Assembly: GCF_030544485.1 (NCBI RefSeq)
Contig: NZ_CP130610.1
Coordinates: 806,001-870,000 of the forward strand
DNA length: 64,000 nt
Reading direction: 5' to 3'
DNA from: Halomonas sp. HAL1
GTDB lineage: Bacteria; Pseudomonadota; Gammaproteobacteria; Pseudomonadales; Halomonadaceae
Shown here: positions 1 through 7,270 of the stretch, piece after piece
Layout of the letters: the number at the start of each line of letters is the position of its first letter
How positions within the stretch are numbered: the first letter of the stretch is position 1
The notes under the pieces: generated by a model
The model's database searches: none
What the model was told of the DNA's origin: nothing
What the model saw: only the letters and a program-made list of their open reading frames with translations
Translations under genes and position numbers: made by a program

Positions 1-551
1 ATGTCTTTCTCTAACCAATCCGTATGCTTACTTTCTTGTGAAACATATACAGCTTGATTAATTGAAAATATCTTTTTACCGATGAGTGTCTCATTAGGGC
101 TAACCACCGGGCGAAAAGCTATATCAGCGTCTCGAGCCTCAAGGCTCATAAGTTCATTGCTTACAATAATGCTTATATTTAGCTCTTTATACTTACAATT
201 AAAATCATGAATAATGTTTCCTAGTAAGCCATATAATAATGTATCTGTGGTGGTTACGGTTAAACTCCCAGAAAAACTTTCATTAGCGGAGTAGAGTTTG
301 CGCTGGGCATAAAGAACTTGTTTCTCTATTTCTTTCGCGCTTCTAACTAACTCTAGACCAGCTAAGGTAGGTACATATGAGTTGTTTTCTCGATGAAATA
401 GCTTTACACCACATTTTTTCTCAATCTCCGCTAAACGTCTATATATTGTTGGATAGCTAAAGCTCAGCTTAAGAGCTGATTTTTTCAATACCTTTTCTTC
501 AGCGATTGCCAGTATAACCTTGAAGTCATCCCATTTAAGATTTTCAATCAT
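1..551 (-). CDS. LysR-type transcriptional regulator (C-terminus beyond window)
   Basis: Reading leftward from an ATG at 551, the frame is open to base 1 (about 183 codons) and continues outside the window. Residues 1-62 form a LysR-type winged helix-turn-helix (starts MIENLKWDDFKVILAIAEE, then a SALKLSFSYPTIYRRLAEIE recognition segment and a KLFHRENN wing). The rest is the start of the effector-binding domain. It is AT-rich like the biosynthetic operon to its right, from which it is transcribed divergently, so it is the likely local regulator of that operon. The ligand is unknown. The assignment to LysR is firm from the N-terminal domain; completeness cannot be judged. Confidence 0.85.
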   Translation of the reverse strand, partial: MIENLKWDDFKVILAIAEEKVLKKSALKLSFSYPTIYRRLAEIEKKCGVKLFHRENNSYVPTLAGLELVRSAKEIEKQVLYAQRKLYSANESFSGSLTVTTTDTLLYGLLGNIIHDFNCKYKELNISIIVSNELMSLEARDADIAFRPVVSPNETLIGKKIFSINQAVYVSQESKHTDWLEKD

Positions 552-560
552 GATAACCTC

Positions 561-578
561 ATTTTCATTAATGATAAT
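561..578. promoter_or_regulatory. Near-perfect palindrome between divergent LysR and MFS genes
   Basis: The sequence ATTTTCATTAATGATAAT has a perfect 10-bp core (TCATTAATGA) and outer ATT/AAT arms. It lies 10 bp upstream of the LysR start and about 60 bp before the MFS start. A T-N11-A type dyad in this place is typical of a LysR autoregulatory site. Its function is inferred from position only. Confidence 0.45.
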
Positions 579-640
579 TTACATATTAGACATGATGAGC
601 TAATGTTTCAATAAATTCATCAAAAGAAACTAATGCAAAT

Positions 641-1879
641 ATGAGTGAAGTCAATAGAGTTGCTCCTGTTATATCTAAAAAACAGCAATTTAACGCTGTG
701 TTTGTTGCCGCTTTATGCGTTATAACTGCTGGTAGTTATGCGACGTTATCAGGTCTGTTAACTTCACAGTTAATTAAAGAATTAGGGTGGACAACACTTA
801 ATACAACATTTGGCATCACCATAAATATGATTCTTTATGGTGCAACAGCACCATTTGCGATTCATCTCATGGAAAAATATGGGATCAAAAAAATTGTCAT
901 ACTCAGCCTTAGTACCCTTTGTATAGGTGCATTGTTTTGCACGATAAATTCGAAAATTATTTTCAATCTTGCATGGGGTATTTTAGTTGGACTTGGGTGT
1001 GGCTCTCTTACGATGTCATTTGGTGCGCTATTTGCTCGTTCGTGGTTTAAGAAAACTGGGCTTCCGACTGGAATCTTGACGGCTTCGTCTGTTACTGGGC
1101 AATTTGTTTTACTACCTCTATGGGCTAAATTAGCAAATGAATTTAGCTGGCGAGCACCTTTGATTGGCTGCATTGCTCTTACATTAGTTACATTATTAAT
1201 CATATATTTAGTTTTTAATGAAAAAATGTCTGCGATTAAAACAGTCACAGAGTACAACATTAAGCCAGATAGCACTTTTGCAGATGTATTTATTGATTTG
1301 AAAAAATTCATGAAAAATAAGAAGTTTTGGGTGATAGCGCTAGCATTTGGAATGTGTGGTGCCACTACAAATGGTCTTATGTGGAGTAGTTTTACTCCTG
1401 CAGCATCTTTAGAAGGAATATCAGTAGCCGACTCTTCTTATTTGCTATTGATAATAGGTCTGTTAAATATTCCAGGTACTATTGGAGCAGGATGGCTTTC
1501 AGATAAAATAAATAAACAGAAACTACTATCAGTTATTTTTATTTTACGAGGCGCTAGTTTGATTTGTCTGCCCTTTATATTATCACAACCAGTAGGTTGG
1601 GAACTGATAGTCTTTGCCGTCGTGTTTGGCGTATTTGATGTTGCAACTGTTCCTCCTGTCATTAATTTATGCAACCAAATATTTGGAGATCGAGGGCCTT
1701 TTGCTTTTAGCTGGATAAATGTGGCTCATCAAATAGGGGCTGGTCTGGTTGCTTTTTTAGGGGGGGTGATTGCATTTATGACTGGATCGTATTTTACACT
1801 GTGGTTTATTGCAGGAGGTATTTTTTTCACAGCCGCTATTATAGTTCTTACTCCTTATCATAGCGAAAAGGCAATATAG
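641..1879 (+). CDS. MFS transporter, probable product exporter of the AT-rich cluster
   Basis: A 412-aa polytopic protein with about 12 hydrophobic segments in two six-helix halves, separated by a charged loop near residues 190-225. The N-terminal half has the typical MFS loop between helices 2 and 3 (HLMEKYGIKKIV). The gene is first in the rightward AT-rich operon, and the next gene begins 15 bp after its stop, so it is probably co-transcribed with the biosynthetic genes and exports their product or imports a precursor. The substrate cannot be read from the sequence. The ATG at 641 lacks a strong Shine-Dalgarno sequence. Overall it resembles monocarboxylate/oxalate-type (OFA) MFS proteins more than drug:H+ antiporters; that subfamily call is tentative. 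Confidence 0.8.
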   Translation: MSEVNRVAPVISKKQQFNAVFVAALCVITAGSYATLSGLLTSQLIKELGWTTLNTTFGITINMILYGATAPFAIHLMEKYGIKKIVILSLSTLCIGALFCTINSKIIFNLAWGILVGLGCGSLTMSFGALFARSWFKKTGLPTGILTASSVTGQFVLLPLWAKLANEFSWRAPLIGCIALTLVTLLIIYLVFNEKMSAIKTVTEYNIKPDSTFADVFIDLKKFMKNKKFWVIALAFGMCGATTNGLMWSSFTPAASLEGISVADSSYLLLIIGLLNIPGTIGAGWLSDKINKQKLLSVIFILRGASLICLPFILSQPVGWELIVFAVVFGVFDVATVPPVINLCNQIFGDRGPFAFSWINVAHQIGAGLVAFLGGVIAFMTGSYFTLWFIAGGIFFTAAIIVLTPYHSEKAI

Positions 1880-1893
1880 CCTTTGGAGGTAAA

Positions 1894-2383
1894 ATGGAAA
1901 ATGTAATATTCACTAGACCTGAAGCATGTCATGCTCAAGAGGTTAAGACACTTGTCGACGAAAATGAACAGTTAGATAGTAACAGCTTATATATATACCT
2001 TATATGGTGCTCTTTTTTTTTCGCAAAATTCTGCAATAGCAATAAAGGACAATAAAGTTATTTCATTTGTAACGGGGTTTAGAAAACCTGATGATCCCGA
2101 AACATATTTTTTATGGCAAACAGCTGCAAAGAAAAGGCATGGAGTAGCTAATCTTGGTTTAAATCTAATTTTATATGCGGTCGAAAAAGAAATAGAAAAT
2201 GGAATTACAGCTATTGAGGCATCTGTAAACAAAAAAAATACACCCATAGTAATGTTAATGAAAACACTGAATAAAAGGATAGAAGGTGATTTGTCTACCA
2301 CATCACTATTTTCCTCGGAACAACTTAGCCATGAGGGCATGCAACACCACGAAGAAACGTTAATGAGAATCGAAATCAACTAA
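1894..2383 (+). pseudogene. EctA-like diaminobutyrate acetyltransferase homologue, frameshifted at a T9 run
   Basis: The ATG at 1894 follows a good GGAGG. The first frame gives 53 residues and stops at 2053-2055. Losing one T from the nine-T run at 2013-2021 restores an open frame to the stop at 2381-2383 (about 162 aa). The joined protein follows the EctA layout of the GNAT fold: LDSNSLYIYL near residue 30 (EctA: LDLNSSYAYL), FVTGFRKPDDPETYFLWQ in the middle (EctA: GFVTGYRPPDRPDTLFVWQ-like), an acetyl-CoA loop and a C-terminal HEETLMRIEI tail (EctA: HEDEYLFRI-like). No ectB or ectC is nearby, so ectoine itself is not the expected product. The frameshift may be real decay, transcriptional slippage on poly-T, or a sequencing error. 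Confidence 0.8.
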
Positions 2384-2393
2384 TGGAGGATTT

Positions 2394-3689
2394 ATGTCTT
2401 CTTATTGGATTCCTGATGAAAATTGCATAAGTAATGTGGCTGATAAATTTGGAACGCCTACATACTTATACTCTGAAAAAGATATAATAAATAATATTCT
2501 TACTTTAAAAAGTAATTTAGGTGGTTGTGCTAAAATACTTTATTCTTTGAAGGCCAATCCAAATGTGCAAATAGTTAATATCATGAAAAAATATGATATT
2601 GGCAGTGAGGTTTCTTCTTATGGTGAGCTTGTTATTGCCAAAGAAGCTGGAATGTCTCCTGAGGATATAATTTTTGTAGGGCCAGGTAAGTCTGATGTTG
2701 AGCTGAGAGCATGCATAGAATTTAAAATACAGGCGATAGTTTGTGAATCTGAAAGTGAAATAATTAGAATTATTGAATTGTGTGATAATTGCTCTAATGG
2801 TCCGGTCAATATAATAGTAAGATTAAATCCATCGTTTAAAGGAGGTAGTGAAACACTGAAAATGTCAGGAAAGCCTCGTCAGTTTGGTGTAGATGATACT
2901 GAAGCTGCCAATTTAATTAAAAAATACAAATCTTATAGCTGTATTAATATTGTTGGTTTTCATGCATATATGGGTACTAGGATATTAAGTGAGTCTGATA
3001 TTGTTAATAACACACTACGTAAGTTATCCTTATTTGATAAGCTAGCTGAAGAAAATAAGATTCAGCTTAGTATGGTTGATGTCGGAGGTGGATTTGGAGT
3101 TCCTTACTATGATGGTGAGAAAGAGTTAGATATTGAAGTTATAGGGAAAGAGTTGTCACAAGCATTTCATGTTTTCAAAAGACAACACCCAGGATGTGAG
3201 ATAGTTATGGAGATCGGAAGATATTTAGTTGCTAACAGTGGAGTGCTAATAACTAAAGTCATTGATGTAAAAGAATCTAAGGGTGAAACTTTTGCAATCA
3301 CTAATGGCGGTATGAATATCCATTTGCTAGCGTCAGGTCTTGGAAGTTTTTCAAAGAAAAATTTACCTTATTCTGTTTTTAAAAAAACACCAGTAAAGGA
3401 AAATAATGGACTCACTACCATTACTGGGCCTTTATGTACACCAACAGATATACTTATAAAAAAAACAAATATGTCAGAACCTAGCATTTCTGATCAAGTG
3501 ATTGTGTATCAGTCAGGTGCATATGGCCCAACTGCATCTCCAGTTTATTTTCTTAGCCATGGTTATCCTGCAGAGGTAATGCATACTGGAAATGGCGTCA
3601 ATTTAATAAGAGAACGTGATTGTATAGAAGATTCTTTAAAAAAGCAGTTTCTTAATAATAAGAGGCTATGTTCGAATGATAGGAATTGA
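2394..3689 (+). CDS. PLP-dependent (type III fold) amino acid decarboxylase, BtrK / LysA family
   Basis: A 431-aa protein of the alanine-racemase-fold decarboxylases. Visible landmarks are the Schiff-base lysine in YSLKANPN (K53), H190 in GFHAYMG, the phosphate loop GGGFG (231-235), EIGRYLVA (273-280), the catalytic-type cysteine in GPLCTPTD (C348) and a tyrosine in SGAYGPT (377). The LNPSFKGG...GKPRQFGVDD stretch matches the subgroup that includes BtrK of butirosin synthesis and exosortase-associated decarboxylases better than classical diaminopimelate decarboxylase. BtrK acts on an aminoacyl thioester held by a carrier protein, and a carrier protein and adenylation enzyme are present here, so an ACP-bound substrate is likely but inferred. 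The RBS is GGAGG at 2384-2388. The 3' end overlaps the next gene by 14 bp. Confidence 0.85.
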   Translation: MSSYWIPDENCISNVADKFGTPTYLYSEKDIINNILTLKSNLGGCAKILYSLKANPNVQIVNIMKKYDIGSEVSSYGELVIAKEAGMSPEDIIFVGPGKSDVELRACIEFKIQAIVCESESEIIRIIELCDNCSNGPVNIIVRLNPSFKGGSETLKMSGKPRQFGVDDTEAANLIKKYKSYSCINIVGFHAYMGTRILSESDIVNNTLRKLSLFDKLAEENKIQLSMVDVGGGFGVPYYDGEKELDIEVIGKELSQAFHVFKRQHPGCEIVMEIGRYLVANSGVLITKVIDVKESKGETFAITNGGMNIHLLASGLGSFSKKNLPYSVFKKTPVKENNGLTTITGPLCTPTDILIKKTNMSEPSISDQVIVYQSGAYGPTASPVYFLSHGYPAEVMHTGNGVNLIRERDCIEDSLKKQFLNNKRLCSNDRN

Positions 3690-4035
3690 TGTCGTGTCAA
3701 CTAAAGAAGTTGAAAGTATGTGTTTTAAACGATGGTTTGTTTTGTATGCTTATACTTATGAGGAATTCCTGAAAAGTGAAACATTTAGTCGTTCTAGAAA
3801 GATTGAATATCTTTCTTCGCGATTTTGTGCAAAAGAGGCTGTTTTTAAATGCTTGTGTTCTTATACAGGCGAAAAGCTTAAATTTAAACCTAAAAGCATT
3901 GAGGTTTTAAATAACGTAAATAATGTGCCAGTTGTTAAGTTGGACTTTCCCTACGATATTAGTTTTACAGGTGGTTTAACCGTATCAATTTCCCATAAGA
4001 AAAATATATGTGTGGCAATAGCATTAATAAAGTAG
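3676..4035 (+). CDS. AcpS-family 4'-phosphopantetheinyl transferase
   Basis: A 119-aa protein with both AcpS hallmarks: IGIDVV at residues 2-7 (Mg-binding D5) and FCAKEAVFK at 50-58 (E54 and K58), plus a C-terminal VSISHKKNICVAIALI strand. It would transfer phosphopantetheine from CoA to the serine of the carrier protein encoded at 6970. It overlaps the decarboxylase gene by 14 bp, which implies translational coupling and a dedicated role in this pathway rather than in housekeeping fatty acid synthesis. Confidence 0.88.
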   Translation: MIGIDVVSTKEVESMCFKRWFVLYAYTYEEFLKSETFSRSRKIEYLSSRFCAKEAVFKCLCSYTGEKLKFKPKSIEVLNNVNNVPVVKLDFPYDISFTGGLTVSISHKKNICVAIALIK

Positions 4036-4050
4036 TTGTAAGGAGGTTTT

Positions 4051-4416
4051 ATGGATAAAGAGTTTAGCTTGACTACTAGGGTTTCTTTTAAAGACATACA
4101 TTATGATGGAAAAGTAGTAGCAGGGGCTCACGTGCTAGAGTTGTTTGGCGACGCTATAACTGGCCTGGCGTTAATGAATGACAATGACGAAGGTCTTTTA
4201 TCAAAGTGGGAGAATGTTAATTTTTATCAAAAAGTAAACCCGGGAGACTTTCTAAAGGTTTACGCTAGAATAGTAAGCTCTAGCAGATTAAAAAGAAATG
4301 TTGAAGTAAATGCTTGGAGGGTAACCGGGTTAAAAGAATATAATGGTAATAATGATCTAGTTGCTGATGCGAAAGGTACCTTTGTTATACCTTTTGTCAA
4401 AGCGAAAGGAGTTTGA
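4051..4416 (+). CDS. Hotdog-fold protein resembling 3-aminobutyryl-CoA ammonia-lyase (Kal)
   Basis: A 121-aa single hotdog domain. Its layout (VSFKDIHYDGKVVAGAHVL, LFGDAIT, NDEGLLSKWENVNFY, VNPGDFLKVYARIV, then DAKGTFVIP) tracks what I recall of Kal, the 3-aminobutyryl-CoA deaminase of lysine fermentation, better than generic 4HBT thioesterases. By analogy it would add or remove ammonia at the beta carbon of an acyl thioester, here probably carried on the ACP. A plain thioesterase role cannot be excluded. The RBS AAGGAGG lies 7 bp before the ATG and 3 bp separate its stop from the next ATG, so it belongs to the operon. Confidence 0.7.
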   Translation: MDKEFSLTTRVSFKDIHYDGKVVAGAHVLELFGDAITGLALMNDNDEGLLSKWENVNFYQKVNPGDFLKVYARIVSSSRLKRNVEVNAWRVTGLKEYNGNNDLVADAKGTFVIPFVKAKGV

Positions 4417-5816
4417 TCTATGTCTACGTTAATAACATTCTTGAAGTTAGCTGTTGAAAAAAGTCCCGACAAAACAGCTATTGAGGATAAGGATGGTACT
4501 ATAAGCTTTAGAGATCTAGACTCATACTCTGACAGTGCAGCTTTGTATTTTAGTGATTTTATTGTATCTCCAGGTGATAGAGTTGTTGTAAGAGGTGTTA
4601 ACTCTATAAGCTATGTGATTGTTATATTAGGTTTATTGAAGGCTAGAGCAGGTTTTTGCCCTGTGTTCTCTAGCGCCCCACCTGACCAAGTAAATTATAT
4701 TATTGACGACTCTCAAGCTACAGCTTTTATTGAAATATTAGAGAGTGAGGTTTTAGTTAATAATAAAGTAGTTTCTCACGGAAATCTCTTTTACTACCAA
4801 TGTGATAGTGGTAACTTGTGTCAAAGTTATCCTCTTCCAGAAGACCTTGCGTGTCTAATATATACATCTGGGTCAACAGGTAAGCCCAAGGGTATAGCAA
4901 CATTGCATAAACAATCATTTTTTGTAATTAATGCAATTTTAGAAAAGATTGATTACTATCCTAGTGATGTGGTTTTAACTTTATCTCCCTTCTCTTTTGA
5001 TTATGGTTTGTATCAAGTATTTATCTGTTTTGCATCACAGTCAAAATTATTTTTGTCTTCAGAAAAAGATTCAGGCGTTTTTATTTTAAAAACTATTTCA
5101 AGCACAAACGCTAATGTGTTAGCGGCAGTTCCATCAATGATTGATAATATGGCTTTGTTGCTAAAAAAGGCAGATGGATTTAAATGTAGCTTGCGTACTA
5201 TAACTTCAACTGGTGCGTCTGTAAACCAAAGTTCTATAGATATTATTCGTCAGGAGATGCCTGATGTTAGTTTTCAGTTGATGTATGGCCTTACTGAGTG
5301 TAAACGTGTTTCTATTGCACCTTTAGATGCGGATATTAGTAGACCTGGAACTTGTGGCCTGCCATTGAGTGGCTCTGAGGTGAAAATCGTTAACGAAGAT
5401 GGAGTAGAATTAAAAGCAAATGAGATGGGGTATATTGTCGTTATCGGGCCACATTTAATGAGTGGTTACTGGGGAGCTAAAGAGCTTACTGAGAAAACTT
5501 TCAAAACAAAATTTGATGTGCTGAGAGAGTTGCATACTGGTGATTTAGGTTGGCTTGATGAAGAGGGTTACTTGTTTTGTGCTGGCAGAAATAAAGACAT
5601 TTTTAAACAAGGTGGTTACAGAGTTTCTTGTGTAGAGGTTGAAGCGGCTGCCATGAGTGCTAGCTGCGTTGAGGCCGCAGCTCTTATACCACCCACAAAA
5701 AATAAAAAAAGTAAGCTATTTGTTCTCTCATCGGATAAGAATTTTGACTTAAAAGATTACTTAAGAACTAAAATTGAAGAATATAAAATTCCAAGTAAAG
5801 TGATTGTGTTAAGTAC

Positions 5817-6443
5817 TTATACAAAAATAATCCGGTATTCGTTGCCGTAGCCTGACAACACCTTATGGACATAGTCTTTCAAGGACGAGAAGCTTTCATA
5901 AGCCGTCAACGGCAGCCACTCATACTTGACCTTGCGCCAAAGAATCTCGATGAGATTTAGCTCCGGCGAATAAGCAGATAGATAGACGAGGTACACACGG
6001 TGCGACATCCATTCCAACTCCTTATGTCGGAAAGCCTTTGAGCGATGGACACTGGCATTATCCAGCACCACGATGGCAAAAGCGTCCGGCGACTTCTGGG
6101 CAATCAGGCGGTCAAAAGCCTCAATGACCACCTCGGTGGTGATGGTCGTCATGGTCGAGTGGTAAATCAGCGAGCCCTGACGACTCAAGAAGCCCAGTAC
6201 GTTCAGGCGCTGACTATGCGAGTAGCCCGGCATTTCCTGAGGATGGCCGATAGGGCTCCAGGCGTAAGGCAAGACGGAGGACAGGGCAAAGCCTGACTCA
6301 TCGAAATAGTACAGTTCCGTCTCGCCCCGATCTTCCCAACGCTGAAGCTCAGCCAGCAGGCCTTGTGTATGGCGGAAGTCAGTCTCGTTACGCTGGCTTT
6401 TCAGGGATCGCCGGGTGCGCTTAAAGCTATACCCCAGATTTTT
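5817..6443 (-). CDS. IS630 transposase, C-terminal DDE catalytic part (orfB), needs frameshift from orfA
   Basis: The frame opens inside the A7 run, immediately after an in-frame TAA, and reads LGYSFKRTRRSLKSQ onward to the stop at 5817-5819. Catalytic acidic residues are visible in YYFDESGF (first D), VVLDNASVH (second D) and SPELNLIE (E). No start codon or ribosome site lies near the frame opening; the first internal ATG (6272) would miss the first D. A +1 or -2 realignment on the A7 run would join it to orfA, either by programmed transcriptional slippage or because the element is mutated. Confidence 0.8.
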   Translation of the reverse strand, partial: KNLGYSFKRTRRSLKSQRNETDFRHTQGLLAELQRWEDRGETELYYFDESGFALSSVLPYAWSPIGHPQEMPGYSHSQRLNVLGFLSRQGSLIYHSTMTTITTEVVIEAFDRLIAQKSPDAFAIVVLDNASVHRSKAFRHKELEWMSHRVYLVYLSAYSPELNLIEILWRKVKYEWLPLTAYESFSSLKDYVHKVLSGYGNEYRIIFV

Positions 6444-6837
6444 TTAATGCTCGCTTGAGCGTCATGGTACAGGCACCTTTTCCGGTTTCCTGCTGGAGTC
6501 GTGCCTGGACGGCCTTCAGCTGATGAGGTTGCTCTTGTACGAGTTCAAGTAACCGCTCCCGCTCCGCATCACTATAGATGGCGGGTCGCCCGGCGCGAGG
6601 CTTGTCCCGGAGCCCATCGAGGCCCTGTGCCTCCCAAGCATCGAACCAGAGCGAAACTGTTTCGCGGGTAACGGACAGAATCTTGCAGATCTGATCGATG
6701 GTATGACCTTGGTGACTCAGCACGATGGCATGAGCCCGACGACGCAAGGCGGGTTTCACGCCATAGGTATAGGTTGCCATCAATGTATGAAGGTCTGTGT
6801 CGGATAGGGAAGGCACAAAGCGGAATGTCATGCGCAT
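6427..6837 (-). CDS. IS630 transposase, N-terminal HTH part (orfA)
   Basis: A 136-aa frame containing a helix-turn-helix domain (TIDQICKILSVTRETVSLWF) followed by a second, homeodomain-like HTH (AGRPAIYSDAERERLLELV). These are the DNA-binding domains that recognise the inverted repeats. It terminates just after an A7 run (T7 at 6439-6445 on the plus strand) and the catalytic domain continues in another frame. An ATG at 6837 is used; an alternative internal start at residue 3 is possible. Confidence 0.85.
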   Translation of the reverse strand: MRMTFRFVPSLSDTDLHTLMATYTYGVKPALRRRAHAIVLSHQGHTIDQICKILSVTRETVSLWFDAWEAQGLDGLRDKPRAGRPAIYSDAERERLLELVQEQPHQLKAVQARLQQETGKGACTMTLKRALKKSGV

Positions 6838-6969
6838 CGTCCTGGATCAACGGGTCAGGTTTATAAGCATAGCGGAAAATATGTGTTTTGGTACTTAGAT
6901 AGCATGCCGGTTAATCAAAACGGAAAAATTGACAAGGTCGAGTTGGAAAAATACTAAAGGAGGAATGTT

Positions 6970-7236
6970 ATGTTTGATAAAGAATCCGCGAAGGAAGCTC
7001 TCAAAGAGGCGTTGGAAAATGTTCTTGGAGAGTCAGTTGGTAAACTAAATTTCGATATACGCATGTTTGAGGACTTACATATGGACTCAACAACCATGCT
7101 TGAGTCTCTGCTAGAATTAGAGGAAAAGCTTGGTTTTGATATTGATCCAGAAGAATTAGACATGGAAGATTTTTTAACTGTAAATGCCTATACTGAGTTT
7201 TTAGTTCAGGCGGTTAGAGAAAAAGAACAAGATTAA
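6970..7236 (+). CDS. Acyl/peptidyl carrier protein
   Basis: An 88-aa acidic helical protein with the phosphopantetheine site in DLHMDSTTMLE (Ser40) and the usual four-helix ACP layout. It follows the stranded end of the adenylation gene by 12 bp and has a strong AAGGAGG ribosome site of its own. It is the expected substrate of the AcpS-type transferase and the adenylation enzyme of the same operon, and the probable scaffold for the decarboxylase and hotdog enzymes. It is the last gene of the AT-rich operon. Confidence 0.9.
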   Translation: MFDKESAKEALKEALENVLGESVGKLNFDIRMFEDLHMDSTTMLESLLELEEKLGFDIDPEELDMEDFLTVNAYTEFLVQAVREKEQD

Positions 7237-7247
7237 GTGTAGAGGTT

Positions 7248-7270
7248 TGCGAGGAGTAACTCTCCTCGCA
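7248..7270 (+). terminator. Hairpin terminator after the ACP gene
   Basis: TGCGAGGAG pairs with CTCCTCGCA across a short loop, 11 bp after the ACP stop. An AT-rich stretch follows. It marks the end of the AT-rich operon. Confidence 0.7.

Follow-up and report, generated by a model that had tools for sequence, protein, structure and literature searches.

The AT-rich gene cluster described here occupies positions 1-7270 of a 64,000-nucleotide stretch of Halomonas sp. HAL1 DNA (NZ_CP130610.1, 806,001-870,000); the whole of this stretch is called the window. A sequence-only reading had recognized eight adjacent AT-rich genes in the cluster, bounded on the right by a terminator and a change in base composition. 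Open reading frames (ORFs), together with matches to protein families and PDB structures, confirm the positions and families of these genes. In our judgement, the chances are slightly better than even that the cluster was acquired horizontally and is the decayed form of a carrier-protein variant of the ectoine pathway. Its features are as follows, where TIGR02406 is the EctA model, with an equivalog cut-off of 120.6 bits.

1-551, minus strand: start of the gene for a LysR-type regulator of 289 amino acids in total, which extends left beyond the window (L004); ORF and family match
641-1879, plus strand: MFS transporter, the likely exporter of the product; ORF and family match
1894-2055, plus strand: first piece of the gene for an EctA-like acyltransferase (EctA*); TIGR02406, 25.6 bits
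1997-2383, plus strand: second piece of the EctA* gene, in another frame, with RHGVANLG replacing the acetyl-CoA loop; TIGR02406, 64.8 bits
2394-3689, plus strand: BtrK/VinO-type decarboxylase using pyridoxal phosphate (PLP); family model and PDB matches
3676-4035, plus strand: AcpS-type phosphopantetheinyl transferase (PPTase); family matches
4051-4416, plus strand: hotdog protein of the 3-aminobutyryl-CoA/beta-alanyl-CoA ammonia-lyase (KAL) kind; NF052388 and PDB matches
4420-5809, plus strand: VinN-type adenylation (A) enzyme, its 3' end cut by an insertion element; family and PDB matches
5810-6897, minus strand: IS630-like insertion element, ends approximate; transposase frames on this strand and TA at both ends
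6898-6957, plus strand: last bases of the A gene, on the far side of the element; sequence
6970-7236, plus strand: stand-alone acyl carrier protein (ACP) with DLHMDSTTML; family match and alignment
7248-7270, plus strand: terminator-like hairpin at the end of the AT-rich block; perfect 9-bp stem, 7248-7256/7262-7270

The G+C content is 33-38% across positions 1-6000 and 50-64% across most of the remaining window, which, with the hairpin, bears out the right boundary. Three features go beyond the sequence-only reading: the leftward extension of the LysR gene and two lesions. The EctA* gene is split between two frames, with the switch inside a run of nine T residues (2013-2021), and this break could be a sequencing artefact. 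The insertion into the A gene is hardly a sequencing error, and the host genome contains the inserted element four times in essentially identical form. Its TA ends suggest the IS630 family. Because both the EctA* gene and the A gene are broken, the window copy is probably inactive. Scanning the window for Rfam families and tRNA genes gave nothing.

Relatives of the cluster and their EctC proteins

The gene set, together with a gene for an EctC-like protein, is found in 14 other loci, so the co-occurrence of the eight genes goes beyond chance. One locus is on a Rhizobium gallicum plasmid (L006), 12 are in Streptomyces (L007, L008, L009 and L155, which are plasmids, L016, L018 and L129-L134), and one is in Halosaccharopolyspora (L015). 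Synteny in intact copies, which had been named as a check on the first interpretation, is thus found. The relatives were collected by using the hotdog protein or the A enzyme, and the counts for these two are therefore not independent. Decarboxylase, hotdog protein, A enzyme, ACP, EctA* and EctC are present in 14 of 14 relatives; because their matches are stop-free and mostly near full length, these loci, which belong to soil bacteria, are apparently intact. The PPTase is found in 13, EctB in 10, and a homologue of the window MFS transporter in nine, counted within the retrieved stretches (43% identity in R. gallicum). An EctD-like gene is found in nine: tblastn gave eight, among them the query itself and one truncated piece, and L007 is counted by annotation only. 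In 11 relatives the hotdog protein is encoded in one reading frame with the PPTase, and in R. gallicum with the decarboxylase. A LysR gene occupies the corresponding place in the R. gallicum cluster too, but a tblastn search with the window LysR protein gave no match to it at E 1e-8. In Rhizobium bangladeshense, a remnant broken by insertion elements retains the MFS gene, EctA* (with one stop), the tail of the A enzyme, ACP, and EctC in two halves.

EctC could not have been noticed by the sequence-only reading, because the window copy does not have it. One EctC gene is located elsewhere in the host genome, which also carries its own EctA (with a normal loop) and EctB outside the cluster, and each of three cluster genomes that were checked has a second EctC. 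The sequence-only reading had placed the acceptor amine on an ACP-bound beta-aminoacyl intermediate. The presence of EctC in all 14 relatives and of EctB in 10 suggests instead that diaminobutyrate is more likely to be the acyl acceptor. A diaminobutyrate aminotransferase is among the enzymes reported from R. leguminosarum (PMC10228743).

The iron ligands of EctC are given as Glu57, Tyr84 and His92 (PMC6344544). Among the relatives, Tyr84 is kept in eight and is His in six, with residues placed by eye from alignments. Genes for a P450 and an FAD-oxidoreductase occur in all six relatives with His84 and in none of the others, and these six clusters may therefore form a further oxidised product. 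The role of EctC-like proteins outside canonical ect operons is called unresolved in a review (PMC5924519), and the clusters provide one candidate use. On the R. gallicum plasmid that carries the cluster (NZ_CP017102.1), a second ectoine synthase-like gene immediately precedes a type I polyketide synthase gene (85937-94114; L145 9938-18115); this is possibly a different non-ectoine use of EctC.

The altered loop of EctA*

In EctA and other GNAT proteins, the RGxG loop binds the pyrophosphate of CoA, and the HxxE motif is on the acceptor side. We aligned 55 rows of canonical EctA (the best-scoring matches given loci, 20 from the phylum and 30 from Streptomyces, and five others, with the host gene counted twice) and 16 rows of EctA* (the 14 relatives, R. 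bangladeshense, and the second-frame piece of the window). The canonical loop conforms to RGxG[LVI][AG] in 53 of 55 rows, and RG is present in 55 of 55. By contrast, this loop is absent from all 16 EctA* rows, each of which has RHG[IV][PA]xLG. The NxAS..LF stretch is also altered, with S replaced by I and F by L or M in every row. EctA* retains other conserved EctA residues, including LDxNSxY (15/15 rows that include this region; the window has the motif in its first-frame piece), the late Glu (16/16) and HxxE (16/16). Because the acetyl-CoA loop is gone while these residues are kept, the group moved by EctA* is more likely to be an ACP-bound acyl group than acetyl. The chance that this donor is ACP-bound acryloyl or beta-alanyl is, in our estimate, about one half.

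These observations bear on the first interpretation, according to which EctA* acetylates the beta-amine of an ACP-bound intermediate; EctC, if present, would then cyclise the product or be incidental. EctA-like proteins are acetyltransferases by family, which speaks for that scheme, but the lost loop beside retained EctA residues and the EctB genes in 10 of 14 clusters make it very unlikely. From that interpretation, loading of an amino acid on the ACP, decarboxylation to a beta-aminoacyl thioester and export are supported as probable, and acetylation is not supported. Duplication of ordinary ectoine genes is likewise disfavoured by the altered loop.

The 16 EctA* rows form one clade (support 100/97), within which the window protein groups with two Rhizobium rows (100/100); the window branch is long, and its composition is unusual. 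The single clade and the loop change in every row also count against the idea that the clusters merely place ordinary ectoine genes (EctA, EctC, and sometimes EctB or EctD) beside a beta-alanyl-ACP module that serves another purpose. So do the additional EctC in the host and in the three cluster genomes checked, and the position of EctA* inside the module in the window and in R. gallicum, where no EctB gene is adjacent. That explanation would fit the Tyr84 retained in eight EctC proteins, the Streptomyces EctA* proteins that score above the equivalog cut-off, and the acyl modules that occur without Ect genes; on balance we regard it as improbable.

Two other unusual EctA proteins were considered as relatives and set aside. 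On the symbiosis plasmid of S. fredii GR64, an EctA-EctB fusion and EctC are located between a NodA-family gene and nifHDK (L154 7950-10251). The EctA loop there is KVRNTGVGK instead of the usual RGxG, and tblastn found no gene of the acyl module in the retrieved stretch. On a plasmid of S. californicus, an EctA gene (L153 8980-9540) stands beside genes for an A enzyme, a decarboxylase, an ACP and an acyl-CoA dehydrogenase. Its loop, TINAPGLAV, is altered differently, and the protein falls outside the EctA* clade. Perhaps it represents a second case of an EctA redirected to carrier-bound acyl groups.

The acyl-loading module and a proposed route

The best PDB match of the window A enzyme is 3wvn (E 7.4e-75); this structure and 3wv4, both of which we take to be VinN, are its best solved relatives. 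Equivalents of VinN Asp230, Lys330 and Arg331, with positions set by a constant chain offset, occur in all 18 A enzymes that were aligned. The window decarboxylase best matches BtrK (7ru7 and 2j66, E ~1e-73), and its YSLKAN motif, which contains the PLP lysine, and its GPLCTP motif are conserved across the cluster set. The hotdog protein matches the beta-alanyl-CoA:ammonia lyase 4mtu (E 3.7e-8), and the family residues HY.G, LFGD..T, D.DE and GD are kept in the window and in nearly all relatives. KAL-type enzymes reversibly add ammonia to enoyl thioesters, at the beta carbon of CoA thioesters. They act on beta-amino thioesters of the beta-alanyl-ACP type.

The simplest scheme that we infer from the conserved genes runs from aspartyl-ACP through beta-alanyl-ACP, acryloyl-ACP and acyl-diaminobutyrate to a cyclic amidine that is exported. 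The A enzyme would load L-aspartate through its beta-carboxyl group onto the ACP primed by the PPTase, and the decarboxylase would strip the alpha-carboxyl group to give beta-alanyl-ACP. The hotdog protein would then probably convert beta-alanyl-ACP to acryloyl-ACP. EctA* would use the acyl group carried by the ACP to acylate diaminobutyrate, supplied by EctB, at its gamma-amine, and EctC would close the tetrahydropyrimidine ring, which gives an ectoine with a different group at carbon 2. In HAL1, this closure would need the chromosomal EctC. EctD-like and P450 enzymes might oxidise the product in some clusters, and the MFS protein would export an ectoine substituted at position 2, perhaps with a vinyl group. 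Homologues provide published precedent for the first two steps, and the steps from the hotdog protein onward are our extrapolation. VinN and VinO are described as acting on 3-methylaspartate, which is loaded and then decarboxylated on the ACP (PMC11284099). AfcQ is reported to activate L-Asp, and the ACP-bound Asp is decarboxylated by AfcP (PMC12186527); BolO is proposed to load Asp likewise (PMC7756342). We suggest tentatively that acryloyl-ACP made from aspartate replaces acetyl-CoA as the donor and that the product is 2-vinyl-ectoine or a hydroxylated or oxidised form of it. The sequence-only reading had listed a compatible solute analogue among its product guesses, and such a product fits the reading favoured here.

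Several observations weigh against this route. The step from loss of the loop to loss of acetyl-CoA use is an analogy based on GNAT structure. Two Streptomyces EctA* rows exceed the TIGR02406 cut-off (138.9 and 139.4 bits), while the R. gallicum protein falls under it (105.4 bits). An AlphaFold model of EctA*, made from three sequences, has a mean pLDDT of 56, which is too poor for use. All 18 aligned A enzymes have Thr in place of VinN Ser299, a residue said to help bind the alpha-carboxyl group (PMC7756342). The window hotdog protein scores 81.1 bits against the KAL model NF052388, under its curated cut-off of 160, and its Glu38 is replaced by Gly, as it is in R. gallicum. EctB was not found in four of the 14 relatives, R. 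gallicum among them, and the window copy combines two broken genes with the absence of EctC.

The change at Glu38 also suits a doubtful sub-case of the carrier-protein reading, in which the beta-alanyl group itself is transferred to give 2-(2-aminoethyl)-ectoine, and the hotdog protein edits or releases thioesters. Homologues with demonstrated activity make beta-alanyl-ACP, as this variant expects. However, the other core residues of the ammonia lyases are retained, and the hotdog protein is present in every relative (though it served as a search bait) and is fused to the PPTase in most. A further alternative draws on the reversibility of KAL-type chemistry: the hotdog protein might add an amine of diaminobutyrate to acryloyl-ACP (an aza-Michael reaction), and EctA* and EctC would then act on the N-carboxyethyl product. 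Under this proposal EctA* would lack an obvious acyl donor, and nothing found here speaks for it directly; we consider it remote.

Returning to the carrier-protein reading, the acyl module seems able to stand alone. Decarboxylase, ACP, PPTase and hotdog genes occur without EctA or EctC in seven loci (L013, L017, L021 and L135-L138), and an A-enzyme match is present in the retrieved stretch of five of these (distant in L021). A KAS III-like gene is nearby in all three that were checked by Pfam (L013, L135 and L138). Because of these loci, acyl-ACP looks like a general donor, made by a self-contained module whose acceptor enzyme is interchangeable. In L013, an ATP-grasp gene (5485-6945) is directly upstream of the decarboxylase gene. 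Near the module in L138, a gene on the minus strand (5958-7217) resembles aspartate/asparagine-tRNA synthetases, with scores under the family cut-offs; a resistance copy and a biosynthetic enzyme are both conceivable.

Distribution and comparison with known systems

The hotdog protein was used as the marker for counting genomes. It has a match in 1 of 369 genomes in the class survey and in 6 of 275 of the host family. Five of these six are short and weak (27-28 of 145 positions, E 4.5-6.1e-4) and were set aside, which leaves HAL1 alone (1/275). In the phylum, the four matches among 398 genomes are HAL1, one at E 4e-22 and two weak ones. In the 18 kb around the match at E 4e-22, there is a distant AMP-ligase match, and the decarboxylase, ACP, EctA and EctC have no match there. 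In Streptomyces, 18 of 343 genomes have a match, including the genome on which the search was centred. The 11 strongest comprise six EctA*/EctC clusters and five acyl modules without EctA and EctC; of the seven weaker ones, six were retrieved, and none of these matches the decarboxylase or ACP. Searches with the A enzyme also matched Sinorhizobium, Rahnella and Tritonibacter, which are outside the counts of relatives.

A search for the source of the AT-rich block at the DNA level found no plasmid match to window positions 641-4416. Carriage by viruses was considered and rejected. The hotdog protein has no relative in viral_contigs; the decarboxylase matches 19 phage records, and the five listed share 26-29% identity with it; two of these carry the annotation lysA and three have none. 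Immediately to the left of the cluster are a type I restriction enzyme-like gene (L004 1418-4474) and a gene (L004 4511-5404) that scores 353.5 bits against PDC-S14, a candidate defence family, and because of these neighbours the cluster may be located within a defence island.

The sequence-only reading knew no pathway with this gene set, and our literature searches agree: among the papers listed from the open-licence PMC literature, none describes an ACP module joined to EctA and EctC in its title or the start of its abstract. If the proposal is correct, two well-known pathways that we found nowhere described together have been joined, and ectoine enzymes have been retargeted to ACP-bound acyl groups to make new cyclic amidines. 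The vinyl form would be an exported, reactive Michael-acceptor mimic of ectoine, perhaps an antimetabolite, hidden among clusters labelled as ectoine genes. Public records call the R. gallicum proteins 'GNAT' and 'ectoine synthase' and those of Streptomyces 'diaminobutyrate acetyltransferase' and 'ectoine synthase', so the clusters are readily mistaken for ordinary ectoine genes. The motif RHG[IV][PA]xLG provides a simple marker for finding more of them.

Several known systems resemble parts of the cluster. In vicenistatin biosynthesis, VinN, VinL and VinO likewise combine an A enzyme, a stand-alone ACP and a PLP decarboxylase that acts on a carrier-bound beta-aminoacyl unit. However, that unit primes a polyketide synthase, and the scheme as described includes neither Ect genes nor a hotdog protein (PMC11284099). 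AfcQ/AfcK/AfcP of AFC-BC11 (PMC12186527) and BolO/BolC/BolN of bolagladin (PMC7756342) share the loading of L-Asp through its side-chain carboxyl and decarboxylation on the ACP. In contrast, their beta-alanyl units are dehydrogenated and put into lipopeptides, and these accounts, as far as they were consulted, do not mention EctA or EctC (PMC12186527, PMC7756342). Butirosin BtrK (2j66, 7ru7) is the best solved homologue of the window decarboxylase; its substrate, according to the PDB title, is carrier-bound glutamate, whereas the A enzyme of the cluster suggests aspartate. The 3-aminobutyryl-CoA/beta-alanyl-CoA ammonia lyases (NF052388; 4mtu) share a fold family and most core residues with the hotdog protein, which differs in scoring under the KAL cut-off, in its location in an ACP cluster and in its frequent fusion to the PPTase. 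Finally, with the ectoine/hydroxyectoine pathway (EctB, EctA, EctC and EctD) the relatives share EctA-like and EctC-like proteins and often EctB and an EctD-like gene. They differ from it in an EctA* that lacks the usual loop, in a built-in ACP module predicted to load and decarboxylate Asp, in an exporter found in many of the clusters, and in the replacement of the EctC iron ligand Tyr84 by His in six of the 14.

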